Assembly (NCBI RefSeq): GCF_003991565.1
Contig: NZ_CP032819.1
Span: 3,224,001 to 3,288,000 of the forward strand
DNA: 64,000 bases
Direction: 5' to 3'
Origin: Butyricimonas faecalis
GTDB taxonomy: Bacteria; Bacteroidota; Bacteroidia; Bacteroidales; Marinifilaceae
This document shows, in pieces, positions 21,628-42,557 of this stretch (position 1 is the stretch's first letter; every line of letters starts with the position of its first letter). The notes under the pieces are model-generated. The model did not search any database. It worked only from the letters and a program-made list of their open reading frames with translations, and was not told where the DNA came from. Made by a program: the position numbers and the translations under genes.

Positions 21628-22446
21628 CTACTTTTCTTTAACATGACATTTGATAAACACGGTTTTTAAGGGAGTTGTAGGGTCGTTTGTTACTAGGCGG
21701 ATTTCTTGCCAGAACGAACCGGCTAATCCCTCTGGGGTAAATTTAGCGTGTAACGTGGAGGATTTCCCTGGTGCAATTATAGTATCATTGAGTTCAGTCA
21801 TTACACATGAACATGTTACTTCTACTTTTCTCACGATTAAATTCGAATACCCATCATTTCGAATTTCCACGTCAAATGCAACAGGAACCTGCTTACCTTG
21901 ATCAAACTGGAACGTGATGGAATCTTGGTTTAATATTCCGCGTGGAGCTTTATCCGGTAATACGTTTTCAAAATTATCTACTACGATACCGCTAACTTTT
22001 ATTCCGGTCATCAGAATCTCGCCGTCACATTTGAGATATTCGGCATAAAGAAATTCTCCATATGGATTATCATGTTGTGGTGAGAATGTCACTAATAAAG
22101 AATCCACGTGTCCTCCCGGTAGGATGAACGTTTGTGTTGCTGGCACATGCTTTTTACCTTTGTGGTATGTTACCTTTAAACCGGTATTTTCCTCTGGATT
22201 TTCCATAATGGATAGGGAAACCGGTTTTTGAGTCGGGTTAAAAATGCGTATCCATTTTTCTTGAACTTCGTTCATTTGTACTACTCCTAATTCCAACCAT
22301 TCCTCGCTTAATAACAAACGTCCGATCGGGACTGTACATGTTGCCCTGTAATCTGCTTTTTCCTCGCATCCGGAAAAAAGCATGTACAACAACACTATGC
22401 CTATCATGATCATTTTTTTATGAGAGGGAAATGCTCGTTCGTTCAT
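21628..22446 (-). CDS. DUF1573 domain lipoprotein
   Basis: 272-residue lipoprotein (lipobox MLFSGCEEK) with two Ig/ASH-like beta domains. The second carries the DUF1573 core: VEIRNDGYSNLIVRKVEVTCSCVMTE, IIAPGKSSTLHAKFTP, and LVTNDPTTPLKTVFIKCHV. Such proteins are common, mostly uncharacterised exported proteins of Bacteroidota. An in-frame TTG at 22470 with AGGAG upstream is an alternative start; the ATG at 22446 is preferred. Heads a three-gene operon (DUF1573, 21190, 20577). Confidence 0.78.
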   Translation of the reverse strand: MNERAFPSHKKMIMIGIVLLYMLFSGCEEKADYRATCTVPIGRLLLSEEWLELGVVQMNEVQEKWIRIFNPTQKPVSLSIMENPEENTGLKVTYHKGKKHVPATQTFILPGGHVDSLLVTFSPQHDNPYGEFLYAEYLKCDGEILMTGIKVSGIVVDNFENVLPDKAPRGILNQDSITFQFDQGKQVPVAFDVEIRNDGYSNLIVRKVEVTCSCVMTELNDTIIAPGKSSTLHAKFTPEGLAGSFWQEIRLVTNDPTTPLKTVFIKCHVKEK

Positions 22447-22484
22447 AAATACATCATTTAGGTTAGACAATAACTCCTGAATTA

Positions 22485-22492
22485 CAAATCTA
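22485..22492 (-). promoter_or_regulatory. -7 element upstream of the DUF1573 operon
   Basis: The minus strand reads TAGATTTG, an exact TAnnTTTG match about 40 nt before the ATG at 22446. A start near 22478 also leaves the TTG at 22470 possible. Confidence 0.4.
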
Positions 22493-24547: not shown

Positions 24548-26440
24548 ATGAGAAAATGGAGTATTGACGATTCAGCAGAACTGTACAATATTAACGGTTG
24601 GGGGCTGAACTATTTTTCGATTAACGAGAAGGGACACGTTACTGTAACACCGAAAGTCGGGGGACCGAGAATTGACATCAAGGAATTGATGGAGGAACTC
24701 CAGGTGCGGGATGTATCGGCTCCCGTGTTGTTAAGGTTCCCGGACATCCTTGATAACCGGATCGAGAAAATCTCTAGTTGTTTTCAAACAGCGGCGACGG
24801 AATATGGTTACACGGGTAAAAATTTTATCATTTATCCGATTAAAGTGAACCAGATGCGCCCCGTGGTGGAAGAGATTGTCAGTCACGGGACCAAGTATAA
24901 TATTGGTCTTGAAGCAGGTTCTAAACCGGAATTGCACGCGGTGTTGTCGATTGATATTGACGACGACGCGATGATTATCTGTAACGGTTACAAGGACGAG
25001 AATTATATCGAGTTGGCTCTTTTGGCCCAGAAAATGGGACGAAATATATACTTGGTTGTCGAGAAGTTGGTTGAATTGAGAAATATCGCGAAGATCTCCA
25101 AACGCTTGAAAATTCGCCCGAATATAGGCATCCGTATTAAGTTGGCCAGTTCCGGGAGTGGGAAGTGGGAAGAGTCGGGAGGAGATGTCAGCAAGTTCGG
25201 GGTGAATTCGAGCGAGTTGCTGGAAGCCATGGATATTCTGGAGAAGAATAAGATGACGGATTGTTTGAAGTTGATCCATTTCCATATCGGTAGCCAGGTG
25301 ACCAATATACGTCGCATCAAGACGGCGTTGAAAGAGGCTTCCCAGTTCTACGTGCAATTGAAAAATTTAGGGTACAATATACGTTTCGTGGATATCGGCG
25401 GGGGATTAGGCGTGGATTATGACGGGACACGCTCGGCCACGAGTGGAAACAGCATGAACTACTCGATTCAAGAGTACGTGAATGATGCCGTGTCCGCGCT
25501 GGTGGATGCCTGCGAGAAGAATAACCTGGAGCAGCCGAATATTATCACCGAGTCGGGACGTTCTCTGACGGCACATCACTCCGTGTTGATTTTCGAGGCG
25601 CTTGCCAGTACAAGTCTGCCCGCTTTCGATGAAAACGAGGAGATCGACGAGAATGCTCACGAGCTGGTGAAGGAGTTGTATGATTTGTGGGAGAACCTGA
25701 ATCAGCCCCGGTTGATCGAGACTTGGCACGATGCCATGCAGATCCGGGAAGATGCTCTCGGTTTGTTTAACCTTGGTTTGATCGACTTGTTTACCCGTGC
25801 CCAGGTGGAGCGGTTGTTCTGGTCGGTGGCCAGAGACGTGTATGACATGGCCGTGGCCACGAAGCATGCCCCGGACGAGTTGAAGAAGATTTCCAAGATG
25901 TTGCCGGATAAATATTTCTGTAATTTCTCGTTATTCCAGTCTTTGCCTGATTCATGGGCGATCGACCAGATATTCCCGATCATACCGATTTCCCGTTTGA
26001 ACGAGCAGCCGACGAAATCGGCAACAATTCAGGATATTACCTGTGATTCTGACGGGAAGATCGATAATTTTATCTCGACGCGCAATTTCTCGTACCATCT
26101 TCCGGTACACGAGTTGAATGGCAAGGAGCCGTATTACCTGGGCGTGTTCCTCGTGGGTGCCTACCAGGAGATTCTTGGTGACTTGCACAACCTGTTCGGT
26201 GACACGAATGCCGTCCATATCAAGGTGAAAGGCGATGATTACGTGATCGATAAGGTGATCGAGGGAGAGACGGTGGCCGACGTGTTGGAGTACGTGCAGT
26301 TTATGCCGAAGAGGATGGCCCGCACGGTGGAAGTGTGGGTAACTTCTTCCGTGAAAAAGGGAATTATCTCGGCTGAAGAAGGACGTGAGTTCCTGTCCAA
26401 TTATCGTTCCGGACTGTACGGGTATACCTATTTGGAATAA
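24548..26440 (+). CDS. speA: Biosynthetic arginine decarboxylase
   Basis: PLP-dependent enzyme converting arginine to agmatine, the first step of the agmatine route to polyamines. At 630 residues it has the length of the SpeA family (alanine-racemase fold). The PLP lysine is in FIIYPIKVNQMRPVV (about residue 99). Other landmarks: IGLEAGSKPEL, LIHFHIGSQ, FVDIGGGLGVDYDG, ITESGRSLTAHHSVL and, near the C-terminus, LGVFLVGAYQEILGDLHNLFGD. Monocistronic, with a -7 box and a good terminator. Agmatinase is encoded at 30654, completing arginine to putrescine. Confidence 0.97.
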   Translation: MRKWSIDDSAELYNINGWGLNYFSINEKGHVTVTPKVGGPRIDIKELMEELQVRDVSAPVLLRFPDILDNRIEKISSCFQTAATEYGYTGKNFIIYPIKVNQMRPVVEEIVSHGTKYNIGLEAGSKPELHAVLSIDIDDDAMIICNGYKDENYIELALLAQKMGRNIYLVVEKLVELRNIAKISKRLKIRPNIGIRIKLASSGSGKWEESGGDVSKFGVNSSELLEAMDILEKNKMTDCLKLIHFHIGSQVTNIRRIKTALKEASQFYVQLKNLGYNIRFVDIGGGLGVDYDGTRSATSGNSMNYSIQEYVNDAVSALVDACEKNNLEQPNIITESGRSLTAHHSVLIFEALASTSLPAFDENEEIDENAHELVKELYDLWENLNQPRLIETWHDAMQIREDALGLFNLGLIDLFTRAQVERLFWSVARDVYDMAVATKHAPDELKKISKMLPDKYFCNFSLFQSLPDSWAIDQIFPIIPISRLNEQPTKSATIQDITCDSDGKIDNFISTRNFSYHLPVHELNGKEPYYLGVFLVGAYQEILGDLHNLFGDTNAVHIKVKGDDYVIDKVIEGETVADVLEYVQFMPKRMARTVEVWVTSSVKKGIISAEEGREFLSNYRSGLYGYTYLE

Positions 26441-26464
26441 TTCGATAGTTAATAATAAAATTGG

Positions 26465-26512
26465 AAGGTCGTGCCGAATGTGTTAAATGTCAATCGAGCA
26501 CGATCTTTTTTT
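26465..26512 (+). terminator. Terminator of speA
   Basis: AAGGTCGTGC pairs with GCACGATCTT (one G-U pair) around a 23-nt loop, followed by a run of T's, 24 nt after the stop. Confidence 0.85.
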
Positions 26513-26659
26513 GTAAACACGCTATCGTGTAAATGTTAATTCCGATTTTGTTTTATCAGACAATCAGTGTGTTGGTAAAAATTCGTATTTTAACACTATT
26601 AAAATGCATGCAAGTGTTTGCAGGTAAAGAAAGATTTGTTAGTTTGGCATCGCTGAAAG

Positions 26660-26738
26660 AAAAAAGCCTCGTGCTGTCACAGCAGGAGGCAACCAATAAC
26701 AAATTTATGAAAAAAAATTGAAGTCTTTTCTTGAAATC
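26660..26738 (-). ncRNA. Putative small structured RNA, copy A
   Basis: Read on the minus strand, a TACCTTTG -7 box (26744-26751, with TTTG 18 nt upstream at 26770-26773) is followed by about 80 nt ending in a strong hairpin (26666-26690) and a T run: an intrinsic terminator. The terminator stem is 5 bp, a G.G-type mismatch, 5 bp and a 3-nt loop. The middle part is nearly identical to copy B at 28037-28121, while the hairpin differs but keeps its pairing. The plus strand instead shows a hairpin, a tiny ORF (ATG AAA AAA AAT TGA, 26707-26721) and a second hairpin with T's, so a rightward leader is the alternative. Family not recognised. Confidence 0.45.
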
Positions 26739-26939
26739 CGGTACAAAGGTATCGGCTTTTCTTTATATACAAAAAAATGAGTAGTTAAATTTCTGTTATA
26801 TCGATTAATTTTCGATATACACTTTATATACGAGAACCGAGAGACAAAGGTTTGGATTGGCTCACGTGAAAAATTCTTTTTATGATGATAATCGACCGAA
26901 TTCTTAGGCTATAAAACAAAGGTAGTATGTTGGCAATGA

Positions 26940-27758
26940 TTATTTCAACAACTTTCTCTCTCCATTATCGCCGTTTTGCAGTACGCTCATCTGATGAATG
27001 GCTATCTGATTGAGTTTTAAAAGACGCTCTCCCTGCGGCATGCCCTGTTCGATGAACACAGCATTGAGGTTTTCCATGTTTGACAGACATATAAGTTCGT
27101 TGATGGCGGCATAATCCCGGATATTGCCTTTCAGGTCGGGATTGGCTTCACGCCATTGCTTTGCAGTCATGCCGAACATCGCCACATTCAACACGTCGGC
27201 TTCGTTGGCATAGATGATGCTTGCCTGCGCCCGAGTAACTTCTGCCGGGATAAGGTTTTGTTTTATGGCATCGGTATGTATGCGGTAGTTGATTTTCGAC
27301 AGTTCACGCTTTGCCGACCAGCCGAGCAGTCTTTGTTCTTCGTTCTTCAGCCGCTGAAACTCTTCTATAAGATACAACTTAAAAGGCACACTGATTGCAG
27401 AACCGAATTCAAACGCAATATCCTTATGAGCGTATGTTCCTCCATAACGTCCTTTTTTCACAACGATACCAATGGCATTGGTACTTTCTATCCATTCGGA
27501 TGCACTCAGTACGAAAGACGGCAGCCCCGCACTTTTCCTAAAGTGGTCGAATTCGACCACTTTAAAACCAGGATTATGAATAACCTCCCATGTGCCAAGA
27601 AATTCAATTGTATAGCGACCTCTTATCCAGTTCTTAATCACGTCTGCCGCTCTGCTGTCACCCTCTTTGGCAGAAGCCATGTCGGTAAGAGAGATATAAT
27701 CCTGCTCTTCAAGATTGAGAACTGTAATCGGTGTATTTTGAACGATAATTTTCGCCAT
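26940..27758 (-). CDS. KilA-N domain protein
   Basis: 272-residue protein with an N-terminal KilA-N DNA-binding domain (about 10-115): YISLTDMASAKEGDSRAADV, IKNWIRGRYTIEFLGTWE, then VVKKGRYGGTYAHKDIAFEFG, the hallmark of the fold. The C-terminal half (LIEEFQRLKNEEQRLLGW...) is helical and has an EADVLNVAMFGMTAKQWREANPDLKG stretch shared by chromosomal KilA-N proteins of Bacteroidota. KilA-N occurs in phage antirepressors and viral regulators; here the gene stands alone, between two copies of a structured RNA element. A weak -7 (TACCTTTA) lies at 27784-27791. Confidence 0.9.
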   Translation of the reverse strand: MAKIIVQNTPITVLNLEEQDYISLTDMASAKEGDSRAADVIKNWIRGRYTIEFLGTWEVIHNPGFKVVEFDHFRKSAGLPSFVLSASEWIESTNAIGIVVKKGRYGGTYAHKDIAFEFGSAISVPFKLYLIEEFQRLKNEEQRLLGWSAKRELSKINYRIHTDAIKQNLIPAEVTRAQASIIYANEADVLNVAMFGMTAKQWREANPDLKGNIRDYAAINELICLSNMENLNAVFIEQGMPQGERLLKLNQIAIHQMSVLQNGDNGERKLLK

Positions 27759-28036
27759 CGGGTCTATGCTTTGGTTTTCAGTCGTAAAGGTAGCTATAAT
27801 TCACGAGATGATCTTCTTTCCAATGAATAATTTACAACGGATGGAAAGCAAAAATACGATAACGGACATTGTTTTTTTCAGGAATTGTTATGCCTTTTAT
27901 CAGAAAGAGTTATTTGACAGCATAACACCGCAAATCGCTGAAATTCGCACGGTCGCCAAATCATTACCTCTGTTTCTCAAACGCTCTGCTAAAATTTATT
28001 CTTCAAATGGTTGTGTTAAGCCGTTGAAAATTTAAA
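27759..28036. other. Gap between KilA-N gene and RNA copy B
   Basis: About 280 bp. The plus strand has an open frame (27826-28035, 70 codons from ATG, e.g. RNCYAFYQKELFDSI) with no recognisable family and no promoter or RBS; it may be a gene remnant. The minus strand contains the likely KilA-N promoter region. Nothing else is evident. Confidence 0.3.
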
Positions 28037-28121
28037 ATAAAAATGGTCCGCGCTGTCTCAGCGGGGACCCAAAATACCAATAACAAATTTATGAAAAAAA
28101 ATCGAAGTCTCTTTTGAATTC
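28037..28121 (-). ncRNA. Putative small structured RNA, copy B
   Basis: Minus strand: TACCTTTG (28127-28134), then about 80 nt ending in a hairpin (28045-28069) built exactly like that of copy A (5 bp, mismatch, 5 bp, TCT loop) and a T-rich tail. Four base pairs differ from copy A with both partners changed. The plus strand has a tiny ORF (28091-28117, eight codons) and a perfect 7-bp hairpin (28121-28138) followed by five T's. It lies 287 bp upstream of the KilA-N start and points towards that gene, so it might be an attenuated leader. Confidence 0.45.
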
Positions 28122-28242
28122 CGATACAAAGGTATCGGTTTTTCATCGTAACCTTGTCACTTATCTATTAAGTTTCGGTTACACTATGATTACATTCAAA
28201 ATATATGCCTATATACGGCACATGAACGTAAAGGTTTCATAA

Positions 28243-29319
28243 TTAATCAAAATTAATTCTTAATTGCAAGGGACCGTGGGAGGTTAGTTCATCGAAAGGA
28301 TTTGATACAGAGAGTCCTAGAAGACGTATTCTAAATTGTGTAAGTTCTAAATCTTTGAGTAATTTTTTGGCCAGGGGAAGAATATCCTGTTTCGTTCGTA
28401 ACTCGTGTGGCATAGTGATACTGCGTGTCTTTTGGGTGAAATCGTGGAATCTGATTTTCAAGGTTAGTGTATGCCCTTTGAAATCAGACTTTTCCAGCCG
28501 GAGAATTAATTCCGTTGTCACGTGGTACAGTTCTATGATGACAGCGATATAGTTTGTCAAGTCGTTCTCGAAGGTACTTTCACAGCCTACGGATTTACGG
28601 ATTCTCTCGGGGGTAACTACCCTGAGATCGATGCCATTGGCAAAATCGTGATACAAGGTGCCGGCTTTCCCGAAGTTACGGATAAGGAAAGCCAGCGTGC
28701 ATTTCTTGAGGTCTGCCCCCGTGTGTATGCCTAGCGAGTGCATTTTGCGGGCTGTGATTTTACCGATACCCCAGAATGCCTCGATCGGGAGTTTGGAGAT
28801 AAAGGCGGGGGCCCGGTCAGGGTGGATGGTGTAAAGCCCATCGGGTTTCTTGTAATCAGATGCAATCTTAGCCAGGAATTTATTGTAAGAGACCCCGGCA
28901 GAGGCCACGAGTCCTAGTTTTTCTTTGATTTCATTCTTGATTTCTTTGGCGATATCTACGGCCAGCGGGATGTTTTTTTTGTTCTCGGTCACGTCCAGGA
29001 AGGCTTCGTCCAGTGCCAGGGGTTCGATGATGTCCGTGTATTCGTGGAATATTTCGTGAATTTGCATGGATATCGATTTGTAGTATTCCATGTGGGAACT
29101 GGCGAAAATGAGGTCGGGACAGAGTTGTTTGGCTTTCATGGACGACATGGCAGAGTGTATGCCATAACGGCGTGCCTCGTAGCTGGCGGCTGCCACGACC
29201 CCGCGTTTCTCCGGACGCCCCACGACAAGCGGTTTTCCCCTGTATTCCGGGTGATCCCGTTGTTCGATAGAGGCGTAGAACGCGTCCATGTCGATATGAA
29301 TGATCTTTCTGTTTTCCAT
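28243..29319 (-). CDS. dinB: DNA polymerase IV
   Basis: Y-family translesion polymerase, error-prone, made in SOS or stress responses. 358 residues, normal length. Motifs: IIHIDMDAFYASIEQRDHP (first catalytic Asp), PLALDEAFLDVTE (catalytic Asp-Glu), the helix-hairpin-helix-like WGIGKITARKMHSLGIHTGADL, and a little-finger domain near 240-340. The ATG at 29319 is chosen because the longer frame to 29628 adds a non-conserved leader that overlaps the next gene's terminator. The C-terminal end lacks an obvious beta-clamp motif in what I can read. Confidence 0.95.
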   Translation of the reverse strand: MENRKIIHIDMDAFYASIEQRDHPEYRGKPLVVGRPEKRGVVAAASYEARRYGIHSAMSSMKAKQLCPDLIFASSHMEYYKSISMQIHEIFHEYTDIIEPLALDEAFLDVTENKKNIPLAVDIAKEIKNEIKEKLGLVASAGVSYNKFLAKIASDYKKPDGLYTIHPDRAPAFISKLPIEAFWGIGKITARKMHSLGIHTGADLKKCTLAFLIRNFGKAGTLYHDFANGIDLRVVTPERIRKSVGCESTFENDLTNYIAVIIELYHVTTELILRLEKSDFKGHTLTLKIRFHDFTQKTRSITMPHELRTKQDILPLAKKLLKDLELTQFRIRLLGLSVSNPFDELTSHGPLQLRINFD

Positions 29320-29459
29320 CTCCCGTTTCAATGAGTAAATATACAACTTTCTCCTGAATTCTGATGGTGTATGTTGGGGGGATTCATGTAGAGAAGATGG
29401 GGAAATTCTCCTCAGCTTAAATGTGGAGATATTCCGCGGAGGGAGGGGTGGGGGAATAT

Positions 29460-29487
29460 AAAGAGGGAAGTGAAAGCTTCCCTCTTT
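29460..29487 (-). terminator. Terminator-like hairpin after the deoxyhypusine-synthase-like gene
   Basis: A perfect 11-bp stem (AAAGAGGGAAG / CTTCCCTCTTT) with a 6-nt loop sits 8 nt after the stop at 29495. The tail is only moderately T-rich. Confidence 0.65.
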
Positions 29488-29494
29488 ATAGTGA

Positions 29495-30517
29495 TTATTT
29501 TTGGAATAGTTTGTTCCAGTTCTTGTATTCTCTCTCTTTCCAAGGTCCGTTGTGGTAAACGTAGCTTGCGATAGCGGGAATAACGGTGGTTCCTTCGGCG
29601 TAAACCATTTGTTCGTAGGTAACGTCAACTTTACCCCAAGAGCAAGCCTCTTTCAGGGTTGAAGAGGAGCAAGCCCCGTCGCGAACGTCGGCCACGGTGA
29701 TCTGGATGGCGTATTTGTGCATTGGCACGTCGAATCCTAGGATTTCAGCACATACAACGGTGTCTTGCGCGAAGTTTTTCGGGGTTCCACCACCTACCAT
29801 GAACAATCCGGTCGTGCCTGCTTTGATCTTGATTTGGGTCAATTCGATGAAGTCTTTTACGGAGTCGATAGACACGTGTTTGTCGGGGTGTTCCCATTGG
29901 TGTTTACCGATACCGAAGCCCGCGCTACAATCGGAGAAGGCCGGGCAGAAGATGGGCACTCCGCATTCATAACAGGTTTGAATCAGGCTGTCTTTCTTCA
30001 CAGCGTGTCCTTCGTGTAACCATTTACCGATTTCCCAGATAAATTCACGTGAAGAATAAGGACGCGGTTCCAAGTTGTTGGCGATCTCGTAAGTCGTGTG
30101 GTCGCAAGCCTGTAATTCCTCTTCGTCGATGAACGTATCGTAAATACGGTCGATGTAAAGTTCTCTTAATTGCATGTCAGGCACGTCTTGGTGTCCCTTG
30201 TAGTGTTTGTAGCCAAGGGCTTCGAACAAGTCCATGTCGATGATGGACGCACCGGTAGAAACTACCACGTCAACCATTTTGTTACGAACCATGTCCACGT
30301 AAACCTGCATACATCCGGCAGCACTGGTACTTCCGGCAATGGTAAGAATATTAGTACACTCTTTCTCTCCAACCATCATCATCAGGATGTCGGTTGCTCT
30401 GGCCGTGTCGCGAGAGGTGAATGACATACCGCGCATCGCGTCGATCAGTTGGGTTGAGTCATACGACTTGATGTCGATGTGTTTGATAGTGTCTTTTAAT
30501 AAATCTTTCTTTTCCAT
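29495..30517 (-). CDS. Deoxyhypusine synthase-like protein (possible homospermidine-type synthase)
   Basis: 340-residue member of the deoxyhypusine synthase family, NAD-dependent enzymes that move an aminobutyl group from spermidine. Visible family features: KMVDVVVSTGASIIDMDLFEAL (matches the VDVLVTTAGG region of eukaryotic enzymes), an AGSTSAAGC nucleotide-binding stretch, and MVGGGTPKNFAQDT, where the Lys aligns with the catalytic Lys of the eukaryotic enzyme. Bacteria have no eIF5A, so the acceptor must differ; putrescine (giving homospermidine) or another amine is an inference supported by agmatinase next door and speA nearby. No signal peptide. Confidence 0.88.
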   Translation of the reverse strand: MEKKDLLKDTIKHIDIKSYDSTQLIDAMRGMSFTSRDTARATDILMMMVGEKECTNILTIAGSTSAAGCMQVYVDMVRNKMVDVVVSTGASIIDMDLFEALGYKHYKGHQDVPDMQLRELYIDRIYDTFIDEEELQACDHTTYEIANNLEPRPYSSREFIWEIGKWLHEGHAVKKDSLIQTCYECGVPIFCPAFSDCSAGFGIGKHQWEHPDKHVSIDSVKDFIELTQIKIKAGTTGLFMVGGGTPKNFAQDTVVCAEILGFDVPMHKYAIQITVADVRDGACSSSTLKEACSWGKVDVTYEQMVYAEGTTVIPAIASYVYHNGPWKEREYKNWNKLFQK

Positions 30518-30653
30518 TTTATTTATCTTAAAAATATAAGGTACAATTATGAGGACCTTATTGACTCAATTTCTCGGTTTTAGATTTCTTGATTTTGGAG
30601 ATTTTAGATTCCGGCCGCACAAGGCTAAGGCTTTAATCTTCAATCATAAATCG

Positions 30654-31526
30654 TCAATTATTTGATTGGTTTTGATACTTGATACTCAATATTTGATAGA
30701 TCAATTTGCTAGCCAAGAAATCAGATGATTTATTGATATCGTTGGGGCAAAGCTCTACCACGTCCAAGCCAACGATGTTGTGACGCTCGTTGATCAATTT
30801 GAGGAAGTTCAGTACTTCTCTGTAATAGAGTCCGTCAGGTTCCGGAGTTCCTGTTGCCGGAACAATAGCCGGGTCGAAAACGTCCAAATCGATCGTGATG
30901 TACACGTTGTCGTGTAATTTTTGCGATACCATGTACATCCAGTTGTTGCCTTCCTTGGCATCATGCAAATCGTGAGCGTAGAAAATGCGATCCGGCATGA
31001 TGTTTTCTTTTTCTTCGATGGCTGAACTTCTGATTCCTACCTGAGCCACGGTTGCCACTTCTTTGGCTCGTGCCATGACGCAAGCGTGGTTGTGGGTAGA
31101 TCCCTCGTATTCGCTACGCATGTCGGAGTGTGCATCCAGTTGTAAAACAGAGAATTTGTCATAGTGTTTGGCAAATGCTCGGAATGCACCGATGCTGACG
31201 GAATGTTCTCCTCCCAGAATAACCGGGAATTTCTTGTCGGTTAATATTTTGTCTACTTGTTTTTCAACTTCTTGAGACATGGCTTCCGGAGATGAGGCTT
31301 CTGTCACCGGTTCCAGGGTCGCGATACCGTGGGTATATACTTCGGAATCCGTTTCAATATCGTAGAGTTCCATGTTTGCCGATGCTTCCAGAATCGCATC
31401 CGGACCTTTATCTGCTCCCTTCAACCATGTGCTTGTTCCATCATAGGGTACAGGCAATACTACAATCTCGGCAGTTTCGTATGCCGTAAACTCGCTCTCG
31501 AGTCCTCCATAATTTTTGTTTTCCAT
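30654..31526 (-). CDS. speB: Agmatinase family protein
   Basis: Binuclear manganese ureohydrolase that converts agmatine to putrescine and urea. 290 residues. Metal-binding motifs are all present: GGEHSVSIGAF (His), QLDAHSDMRSEYEG (Asp-His-Asp) and TIDLDVFDPAIVPATGTPEPDG (Asp-Asp, and substrate Glu). With speA (24548) it completes arginine to putrescine. Arginase or another guanidino-hydrolase activity cannot be excluded from sequence alone. Located between the amidohydrolase gene and the deoxyhypusine-synthase-like gene on the same strand. Confidence 0.9.
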   Translation of the reverse strand: MENKNYGGLESEFTAYETAEIVVLPVPYDGTSTWLKGADKGPDAILEASANMELYDIETDSEVYTHGIATLEPVTEASSPEAMSQEVEKQVDKILTDKKFPVILGGEHSVSIGAFRAFAKHYDKFSVLQLDAHSDMRSEYEGSTHNHACVMARAKEVATVAQVGIRSSAIEEKENIMPDRIFYAHDLHDAKEGNNWMYMVSQKLHDNVYITIDLDVFDPAIVPATGTPEPDGLYYREVLNFLKLINERHNIVGLDVVELCPNDINKSSDFLASKLIYQILSIKYQNQSNN

Positions 31527-39004: not shown

Positions 39005-39099
39005 ACGCGCAATCGCTATCGAATAAAATTGAGCCTTTATCATAGCGACCATCAAACAGTAAACTAAATTTACTATTTAATAATTAGTACGACAAATTT

Positions 39100-42000
39100 A
39101 TGCAAAAAAATCACATCGGCGGTATTCATATCGCCAAAAAAGTTGCGTTGTGCATATTCTTGGTATCCGCGACGCTAAGTGCTTTGCCAGAGAGTACTTT
39201 CGGGGCCACATCCAGTGTGTTTCAGGTCATCTCGAAGAGAGTAACGATTTCGATGAAAAATGCCACGCTGGAAACAATCCTTGCCGAAATGAATCGGCAA
39301 GCGGGTCTTGATTACGGTTTCCAAAGTAACGGGTCGGTAGATAAAAACCGGAGATTCACCCTGGAAGTAACGAATGTTACGGTGGAAGAAGCCCTCACGA
39401 CATTGTTAAAAGACAGTCCTTATACTTATGTTCTGGAGAAAAATCGGGTTGTTATAATTATGCGGGAAAAGAAACCCGTGGAATTGGTCACCGTAACCGG
39501 ACGGGTGGTGGATGAAAAAGGAAATCCCATTCCCGGGGCAACAGTCCTTATCCAAGGAACTACCCAAGGGGTAGCCACGGATACGGATGGAAATTACACG
39601 ATCAGTATGCAGCCGACGGATGCCTTACGGGTCTCTTTTGTCGGTTATAAGACGGAAGTTATCGAATTGAAAGGGAAGAAGAAAATAAATATCCGTTTGA
39701 ATCCCACGGCTGAGAACATCGAGGAGGTAACCGTGGTGGCTTTCGGTGAGCAGAAGAAGGAGAGCGTGGTATCAGCGATTACTACCGTGGATGCAAGAAC
39801 ATTGAAATCCTCAAGTAGCGACTTGACCACTCAATTCGCCGGAAAGATTGCCGGAATGATTGGGTGGCAGACGGGAGGTCTTCCCGGTGCTTTGACGGAA
39901 GATGAAATGAACACGAAGTTCTATATCCGGGGTATTACCTCTTTCCAGACGAATGCTAACATTGACCCGCTTATTTTGATTGATGGGGTGGAATCTTCCA
40001 AATTGGATCTTTCCCGTATGGTACCGGAGGACATCGAGACGTTCAGCGTCATGAAAGACGCTTCGGCAACAGCCATGTACGGAGCCCGCGGGGCAAACGG
40101 GGTAATTCTTATAACGACTAAAAAAGGAGAAGAGGGTAATGTTTACACCTCTGTTCGTTACGAGGCGGTAATGAGCCGACCGACTAGGGAGATTGAGGTG
40201 GTTGATCCGATTACTTACATGAAAATGTATAACCGGGCATTGCTCGCTCGCGATCCGAGTGCAACACCTCAATACAGCGTGGAGCGCATTGATCGTACCG
40301 GTTCCGATCTTTATCCTTCTTGGTTATATCCTGCCAATGATTGGTACGATATCTTGTTTAAGGATTACTCGATCAACCACCGGGCGGGTTTGAATATTCG
40401 GGGTGGTTCGCGTGTGGTACAATACTATGCGTCCGTGAATTATACGCGGGATGAGGGTATGTTGAAAACCGACCGTTTGAACCAGTTCAAAGTGAACATT
40501 GAGAATAATTCCTTCTCTTTCCGTACCAACTTAAATATCGACTTGAGTGCCGGGATTCGTTTGAACATCAATACTTCCGCGAATTTTGATAAATACAGGG
40601 GCCCCAAGGCCGATGTTTCACAGGCATATTATATGGCTTTCAACGTGTCGCCGGTAGATTTTGCCGCTACTTATCCGGCTGACGATACCTATAATTGGCC
40701 GCACATTCGTTTCGGAGCCACCAATGCGGCACCGGATGCGAATCCTTACATGGAGATTCACAAGGGATATAACGATCGTCGCCGTTATTCTGCGGTAACG
40801 CGGGCGGAGTATATCCACAACCTGTCACCTATCCTCAAGGGATTGGAAATGCGGGCTTCCGTATCTTTGAATTATGTAGGATACTATTATAACGTCTATA
40901 ACACCAAACCCTATAAGTATAACATAAAAGATTATAACTTCGAGACCGGCAAGCACCAATTGTTAGCGATAAGTCCGGACGGATCATCCAGAACATTGGA
41001 TTTTGACGTTGGTGGAAGTAGTCAAACTTCGCAATTGAGTTACGAATTGAGGGGATTGCACGTGGCTGCCTGGGGTGAGCACCAGACCAGTTTGACGGTC
41101 GTGTTTAGCGGGCAAGAGACCACGGCATCGGACGTAAATAATTCGATTTTGAACGGTATACCCCAACGAAACTTGGGCTTGGCGATGCGCGGGACCTATG
41201 GGTTCAGGGATAAATATTTTTTAGAGGCAAGTTTCGGTTACAACGGTTCAGAGCGTTTTGCCAAGAAACATCGTTTCGGTTTTTTCCCTGCCGTGGGAGG
41301 TGCTTGGATTGCTTCGAAAGAACCTTTCCTTGCTAATAATACCGCTCATTGGCTTTCGTACTTGAAGTTCCGTCTTTCTTGGGGAGAAGTCGGGAATGAC
41401 GGGATTGTTAAAAATCCGCGTTTTGTCCATCTGCCCGTCGTGTCAACAGTAAGTGTGCCGCATCCGGGAACTGCAACAAGTGCTACGGTGGAGAGAGCTG
41501 TCATAGAATCTTACCCGAATGACAAGATCACGTGGGAGATTGCCGAGCAGGTAAATTTGGGCGTGGAGACAAAATTCTTCAATGGAATCGTGGAACTCAA
41601 TGCTGATATTTATCAGGAAATTCGTCACAATATCATTGACTATCGCTACACGATGCCCGAAACAACCGGGTTAGAGAAGCTGCAAATCGGTAACGTGGGT
41701 AAAACCCGTTCTCGGGGTTTGACCTTTCCGGTAAAATCCAACACGCTTTCAGTCCTGATTTTTGGATGATTTTGAATGGTACGTTTACTTACAACAAAGC
41801 GATTTATTTAGAGATTGAACAAGCAACCAACACGCCGGAATGGCAACGGAAAAAAGGCAAAGAGATCTCCCAACAAATCGGGTACATCGCCGAAGGGCTT
41901 TTCCGCGGGCAGGCGGAAATCGACAACTCGCCCAGCCAGGGAGGTACCGGAATGACGATGCCGGGAGATATCCGGTACCGCGACTTGAATGATGACGGAA

Positions 42001-42557
42001 AAATCGACGTGAATGATGCCGCGTATATCGGGTACCCGACCACACCCCGTGTCGTTTACGGTTTTAGCGGTTCATTCCAGTATAAAAACGTTGAGTTCAA
42101 TTTTGCCTTCCAAGGATCGGGGAAACGGGCATTTTTTATGGACCCGATGCAGATCGGTCCGTTTGTGAATAATCGGTCCATGCTGAAAGCCATTTATGAC
42201 GATCATTGGAGTGAGGACAATATGAAAGAACGTCCCTTCTGGCCGCGTCTCTCAACCCAAGCCATTAATATGCATAATCCGCAAGAGGGTGAATATTCTA
42301 ACGCCGGCAATCCCCGGTATTCGACCTATTTTATGCGGAAATGCAGCTTCTTGCGTTGCACCGCCATTGAAGTGGGGTATAACCTCCCGAAGAATGTGCT
42401 GGATAAATTGAAAATGAAAAACGTGAAATTTTATGCCCGCGTCAATAATCCCTTCCTGATTACTAATTTTAAAGTATGGGATGTAGAGTTAGGTAGTAGT
42501 GGATTCAATTACCCCATACAACGTACTTGGTCGGCGGGGTTGAATGTCAGTTTCTAA
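39100..42557 (+). pseudogene. SusC/RagA TonB-dependent transporter with STN domain, operon 2, frameshifted
   Basis: A SusC gene of about 1152 codons broken by a one-base deletion in GGGGTTT near 41714-41720. The first frame (39100-41769) gives the signal peptide, STN domain (about 45-115: ISMKNATLETILAEMNRQAG), a CarboxypepD-reg domain (VTGRVVDEKGNPIPGATV), the plug (PLILIDGVESS, VMKDASATAMYGARGANGVILI) and most of the barrel, then reads off (RGLTFPVKSN). The other frame continues correctly as GFDLSGKIQHAFSPDFWM and on to the barrel end (TWSAGLNVSF). Without the shift the two parts make one normal protein. Sequencing error, a real mutation or reversible slippage are all possible. Confidence 0.9.

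Follow-up and report, generated by a model that had tools for sequence, protein, structure and literature searches.

The window, the whole stretch of 64,000 nucleotides of the Butyricimonas faecalis genome that was analysed, probably carries two tandem genes for small RNAs (sRNAs) of the FopS type, which would act in trans by base pairing. Their seed would most likely block ribosome binding on many susC mRNAs, and together they would serve as a common brake on a large number of outer-membrane glycan importers. The computed evidence consists of both units, a covarying terminator, a complementarity between seed and targets that is nearly exclusive to SusC starts, and a shared speA-sRNA-dinB locus.

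Two units on the minus strand

Two copies of one unit had been noticed, in the same orientation, when the sequence alone was read, and on re-reading the window both their orientation and their places were borne out. The units lie on the minus strand at 26660-26751 and about 28039-28134 and have the same order, namely TACCTTTG, about 25 nt, the core ATTTTTTTTCATAAATTTGTTATTGG, a hairpin and a T run (Table 1). The central stretch reported as almost unchanged is a 26-nt core identical in both copies, and as 100 shuffles gave no match to it at up to 3 mismatches this identity is not expected by chance.

The motif TACCTTTG was read as a -7 box on what we take to be the consensus, TAnnTTTG. The predicted 5' ends of the RNAs were placed five bases after TTTG, following the matches of the Rfam model RF04319 (FopS). 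This Bacteroidota box directly precedes the predicted RNA in each of the window copies, and 11 of the 13 sequences in the alignment have it; of the two remaining homologues it is absent in L074 and degraded in L073. Box and seed taken together as a pattern occur at 4 places in this genome and at 3 in the control, which is too close for the pattern to be of evidential use.

Table 1. Features of the two sRNA genes and their surroundings, in window coordinates
Feature	Position	Strand	Remarks
sRNA gene A1 (copy 1), predicted transcript	26660..26739	-	5' end about 26739, by analogy with RF04319 matches
-7 promoter box of A1	26744..26751	-	TACCTTTG
A1 core	26693-26718	-	
A1 19-nt seed	26700..26718	-	ATTTTTTTTCATAAATTTG; within core
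A1 terminator hairpin	26666..26690	-	GCCTC-C-TGCTG-TGA-CAGCA-C-GAGGC
A1 T run	26660-26665	-	
sRNA gene A2 (copy 2), predicted transcript	28039..28122	-	5' end about 28122
-7 promoter box of A2	28127..28134	-	TACCTTTG
A2 core	28077-28102	-	
A2 19-nt seed	28084..28102	-	within core
A2 terminator hairpin	28045..28069	-	GGTCC-C-CGCTG-AGA-CAGCG-C-GGACC, then A and T run
KilA-N ORF, between the sRNA genes	26940..27758	-	272 aa; PF04383, 4.7e-17
Palindrome over A1 promoter box	26738..26755	.	the second hairpin of the sequence-only reading
Palindrome over A2 promoter box	28121..28138	.	
Predicted target, SusC-type start region	39093..39111	+	1 mismatch to seed; ORF from 39100

A second hairpin had also been described, differing between the copies by a change from G-U to A-U. 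The change exists, but the pair forms on the plus strand only, the minus strand having A.C in one copy and A-U in the other. This hairpin covers the minus-strand -7 box and the predicted transcription start and, given also the strand of its changed pair, it falls outside the minus-strand RNA as drawn. The palindrome is 87.9% paired across the 13-sequence alignment. Compensatory changes can be seen in L071 (CTGATAC/GTATCAG) and L073 (CCACTAC/GTAGTGG), and it is not kept in L072 and L074. The palindrome may be an operator or a plus-strand terminator.

The terminator hairpin

Refolding returned the hairpin as it had been drawn, with 5 bp, a mismatch (C.C), 5 bp and a 3-nt loop, and the estimate of about four pairs changed on both sides agrees with the four pairs that differ in this way between the copies. 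Folding and covariation identify the 3' end of each unit as a Rho-independent terminator hairpin. Its stem is paired in 100% of cells in the alignment of 13 distinct sequences from 8 genomes (window copies counted), in which 4 of the 10 stem pairs vary on both sides; rows identical to others were removed from this alignment, and G001 thus adds none. When genus g3 was added, 8 distinct hairpins were obtained, in which 98.8% of cells are paired and 5 of the 10 stem pairs vary on both sides. The covariation score of the 8-hairpin set, from which L108 was omitted (its diverged stem was misplaced by the script), was 0.586 against 0.175 in shuffles, none of 500 shuffles being as high. The number of further pair types showed no excess over shuffles in the 13-sequence and 8-hairpin sets alike.

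The pair adjoining the mismatch occurs as U-A, A-U, C-G and G-C among the 8 hairpins, all of which have the C.C mismatch, and the GCUG/CAGC tip is present in all cells but one. The conserved terminator tip can be written as NGCUG-NGA-CAGCN beside the C.C mismatch. In the best fold the seed is unpaired or nearly so in copy 2 and partly paired in copy 1.

The seed matches SusC start codons

Start regions of SusC glycan-transporter genes are complementary to the core. With 2 mismatches allowed, the 19-nt seed has 62 places in the 4.98-Mb genome, against 1 for the reversed control, and all 62 were read. The ATG of an ORF of at least 60 aa is found at 53 of them, three are sRNAs (both window copies and G000:C1:1930278) and six are neither ORF start nor sRNA. 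The SusC architecture (Pfam Plug and CarbopepD_reg_2) was recognised in 52 of the 53 seed-site proteins, 42 of the 53 having STN as well. The odd ORF (L004) encodes 73 aa, matches STN below threshold (E 0.16) and leads into a TIGR04056 match.

An independent SusC set was taken from TIGR04056, with 136 candidates of which 56 were scored, and the genome may hold more. A seed site lies just upstream of 28 of the 56 scored genes, 157-403 nt before the model start, whereas random placement gave 0.30 and at most 4 such genes in 2000 trials. Among the remaining 28 genes, 14 have at least 10 uninterrupted pairs across the ATG, against 3 of 46 window ORFs, the best in-frame ATG being chosen in both sets; the other 14 of the 56 show neither kind of complementarity. 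The best of the 3 window ORFs matches at 18 of 19 positions and should correspond to the SusC gene that the window itself contains, at 39100. This SusC-type gene apparently continues in a second frame (39100-41769, 889 aa; 41766-42557, 263 aa).

Duplex energies calculated by RNAduplex on 800-nt regions (24 of the 53 site-bearing genes and 158 background pieces, two of which contain the sRNA genes themselves) separated the targets only modestly. The values for A1 were -25.4 for site-bearing SusC genes, -20.8 for background pieces and -23.2 for shuffled RNA, and for A2 they were -27.1, -23.5 and -23.9, respectively. With B2, an RNA of the second type described below, SusC was hardly separated from background. 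RNAduplex is too noisy over such long regions.

The same complementarity is seen in relatives. Six genomes of the genus have 57-83 seed sites each (reversed control 0-2), and 50 other family genomes have 1-42, with a median of 8 (control 0-5). Three genomes of genus g3 are also high, with 30, 31 and 42 sites. Moreover, among 30 loci fetched in a DNA search of 59 genomes there were 14 long ORFs with a seed-like start, one of them from this genome; all 14 are SusC-type by CarbopepD_reg_2 and STN, and 13 also have Plug.

Relationship to FopS

According to PMC11697453, B. thetaiotaomicron has 14 paralogous FopS sRNAs that are bound by RbpB and repress susC translation at the start codon. The sequence-only reading had left the family unrecognised, and it missed the resemblance to FopS, the fact that the core is antisense to SusC starts and the absence of the KilA-N gene from the related loci. 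In the Rfam search that it had proposed, the window copies had no RF04319 match at the gathering score (56 bits) or at E up to 10. The whole window gave nothing but a tRNA at gathering score, and the six rows obtained at E up to 10 in 26600-28200 belong to other families, far below their cut-offs. As a positive control, five Bacteroides loci matched RF04319 at 72-82 bits, the candidate FopS genes having been taken from named Bacteroides genomes (80 loci, none titled B. thetaiotaomicron). This genome has one RF04319 match at E 0.607, at an unlisted place, which is expected to lie outside the window copies. The model matches 47 of 56 family genomes at E up to 1; a single genome passes the cut-off, and foreign DNA is suspected there.

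Among the sub-threshold matches that were listed, many belong to tandem arrays that carry UUUUUCAUAGAUUAGAUUUAGGUUAGU and a terminator and, for the most part, the promoter box. Arrays of 2-5 FopS-like units, all below the RF04319 cut-off, were seen in other genera of the family (L305-L311, L319-L324), and in genus g17 (L306, L309, L324) some units have a pair of UUUUUCAUA motifs separated by 43-45 nt, which may belong to a single transcript. Two RNAs of a similar, second type occur in the present genome (G000:C1:1930282 and 4053460), so that the copies found here are two of the window type and two of the second type. Arrays and second-type RNAs align with Bacteroides FopS over UUUUUCAUA..AUUUA-GGUUA. 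At up to 3 mismatches the 22-nt core of the arrays occurs 5-10 times per genome in four genomes from other genera, and it has no place in the present one; a T run follows at 25 of those 29 places, with a box before it as well at 19, and none of the 29 is at the start of an ORF over 70 aa in the four genomes.

The pattern TTTTTCATA..GGTTAGT, matched by 89 of 295 genomes of the order, served for candidate finding only, because many of the loci read are ordinary gene starts. Five loci from other families of the order (L156, L161-L163, L178) look sRNA-like, with this pattern before a hairpin-like stretch and a T run, and some of them have a TTTG box upstream.

It is conceivable, if rather unlikely, that the window RNAs act as proposed and are unrelated to FopS by descent, the seed of an independent sRNA having converged on the same SusC start codons. 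The failure to match RF04319 agrees with this, and so does the nature of the shared core, which is the part constrained by the common target. A model of the FopS-like RNAs with the window copies left out (R2, without base pairs because the terminators fail to align) gives the window copies E values of 0.011 and 0.033, below another window place, and scores some SusC starts, as antisense strands, much like sRNAs. The best R2 match in the window, at 22442-22488 (+) with E 0.0031 and the sequence TTCATAAATACATCATTTAGGTTAG, is antisense of an ORF start region and can be either chance or another target-like site. Furthermore, within the extent of their loci the RNAs of genus g3 had neither speA nor dinB next to them. 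Against convergence, two of these g3 RNAs (L105, L106) have a FopS-like core, CATAAGTTTGTATTAGGTTAGTTAGTAG, in combination with the window-type terminator, C.C mismatch and same tip included, and L107 has this terminator with a variant core. In addition, the covariance model R1, built from the 13 distinct sequences, matches L106 (3e-7), L120 (2e-6), L109 and L108 at 3e-7 to 3e-4 in 39,770 bases, and its weaker matches (E about 0.01 to 3) fall on FopS-like units. Kinship is graded as no higher than probable, owing to the weak R2 scores and to a seed that is under the same target constraint; the window RNAs probably work like FopS and are related to it, as RNAs that are not members of RF04319.

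Proposed mode of action

By analogy with FopS we infer transcription, its start point, repression and the role of an RRM protein. Each sRNA would have a TAnnTTTG promoter of its own, be read from the minus strand, begin some 20 nt ahead of the A/U-rich seed and end at the intrinsic terminator with the conserved tip. On many susC mRNAs the seed would then pair with the region of the start codon, CAAAnnTATGAAAAAAA, and pairing over CAAAnnTAUGAAAAAAA would most likely block ribosomes on them. An RRM protein of the RbpB kind may take part, and three RRM_1 matches above cut-off in the genome are possible partners.

If the pairing is real, repression is the likely sign of its effect. An improbable alternative is that the RNAs bind susC mRNAs and activate them, or mainly titrate the RRM protein. 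The sign of an effect cannot be read from sequence, and RbpB is described in PMC11697453 as counteracting FopS in B. thetaiotaomicron. Nevertheless, the start codon itself lies within the predicted pairing, and binding at that position normally stops initiation; the same source has FopS-10 blocking susC translation in vitro.

Strand and locus

It is very improbable that the plus strand is the functional one, as a mimic of susC starts that soaks up antisense RNAs. This strand reads hairpin, AACAAATTTATGAAAAAAAAT (a susC start look-alike) and second hairpin with T run, and its folding z-scores (-4.9 and -4.7) are stronger than those of the minus strand (-2.6 and -1.5). No TAnnTTTG box was seen by eye before the units on the plus strand, however, whereas the minus strand keeps one in most homologues, as given above, and in most related units box, seed and T run are all on one strand.

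The minus-strand sRNA reading is in agreement with the genomic setting. The DNA search of 59 genomes detected close copies within the genus itself and also in G010, G018 and G028; the weaker matches, as far as read, were mostly gene starts. The making of a covariance model from the copies and the counting of its matches, which had been suggested as a check, showed that, with E up to 0.1, R1 has matches in 17 of 56 family genomes and in 16 of 393 genomes of the order, this genome being counted in both sets and the weak matches being read in part only. By tblastn, speA and dinB flank the sRNA in G001, G002, G003, G005, G010, G018 and G028, and in G004 two copies lie on two contigs, one beside speA and the other beside dinB. 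The speA-sRNA-dinB locus is thus common to three genera. In four relatives within the genus there are two copies, the distances between the cores being 216, 216, 235 and 466 nt, and KilA-N gave no match there; G010, G018 and G028, from two other genera, have one copy each at the speA-dinB place.

The KilA-N gene had no tblastn match in 9 related loci and, among the genomes examined, stands at the sRNA locus in this one only; it is regarded as a neighbour and is not thought to be part of the sRNA system. Paired copies in the genus, single ones in two other genera and the lack of the KilA-N gene from all 9 loci lead us to infer a tandem duplication within the genus, with the KilA-N gene probably arriving later. 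The locus has a polyamine neighbourhood (window 24548-31526), with speA and with deoxyhypusine-synthase-like and agmatinase-like ORFs named by eye. Searches of phage and plasmid collections returned short chance-level matches only (best E 3 and 0.2).

That the units are mobile-element ends around the KilA-N gene, or an attenuator leader, is hardly credible: direct repeats do flank that gene here, but in the four relatives the two copies are separated by 216-466 nt without a KilA-N match, the three genomes of other genera have a single copy at the same place, and copy 1 is followed by the end of the convergent speA gene. The attenuated leader, one of the two layouts first offered, is disfavoured by this speA 3' end and by copy 1 coming behind copy 2 in the four relatives. 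Attenuator, IS-end and plus-strand readings were set aside on synteny, the speA end and the minus-strand box. The other layout, a free-standing small RNA, has gained support from the promoter box, the predicted length of about 80 nt, the terminator, the compensatory changes in homologues and the locus common to three genera, and tandem genes that encode trans-acting small RNAs are the best reading of the units.

Possible significance

Gut Bacteroidota have dozens of SusC importers and need to choose which of them to make. One seed fitting most of these importers predicts a genome-wide post-transcriptional regulon from sequence alone, and control of the FopS type would then extend to RNAs missed by the Rfam model. 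A more tentative idea is that of a lineage-specific global switch, in which the sRNA pair of this genus and some fifty susC starts have been mutually tuned and the C.C tip is perhaps a protein-binding site. If this were true, a single 19-nt seed would reach most glycan importers at once, in contrast to the four sister genera examined, which carry several FopS-like units whose cores have no comparably long match to gene starts. The invariant C.C hairpin tip might then bind a protein, beyond its role as a terminator, and the covarying hairpin is a candidate for protein binding. The intermediates supplied here are relevant to the way in which seeds of this kind drift along with their targets.

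Comparison with known systems

Literature searches on FopS, GibS, RbpB and sRNAs of SusC, Odoribacter or Butyricimonas yielded, among the matches listed, no such RNA recognised outside Bacteroides.

The second-type RNAs and the arrays resemble the window RNAs in the UUUUUCAUA core, the terminator and, mostly, the TAnnTTTG box, the arrays being tandem as well. They differ in having UUUAGGUUAGU after the seed and other terminator stems. GibS of B. thetaiotaomicron is alike in that its R1 seed is common to FopS and binds start codons (PMC11697453), and different in a second seed and other targets (PMC11697453, PMC7366714); it is compared here on published description.

The closest system is FopS (RF04319). 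It has in common with the window RNAs a TAnnTTTG promoter, UUUUUCAUA in the 5' part, a terminator hairpin, paralogous copies and RRM_1 proteins encoded in the genome, as well as a seed complementary to susC start codons, a likeness that for the window RNAs consists of complementarity. The window seed is 19 nt long and predicted to begin about 20 nt from the 5' end, whereas that of FopS is at the 5' end. The window RNAs are without the AGGUUA block, and their stem has the invariant C.C mismatch and the NGCUG-NGA-CAGCN tip. Moreover, two copies at one locus and two second-type RNAs stand against the 12-15 FopS copies per Bacteroides genome mentioned in PMC11697453. Our verdict, from these sequence comparisons, is that of a putative FopS-like sRNA, divergent and lineage-specific, whose SusC seed is long.
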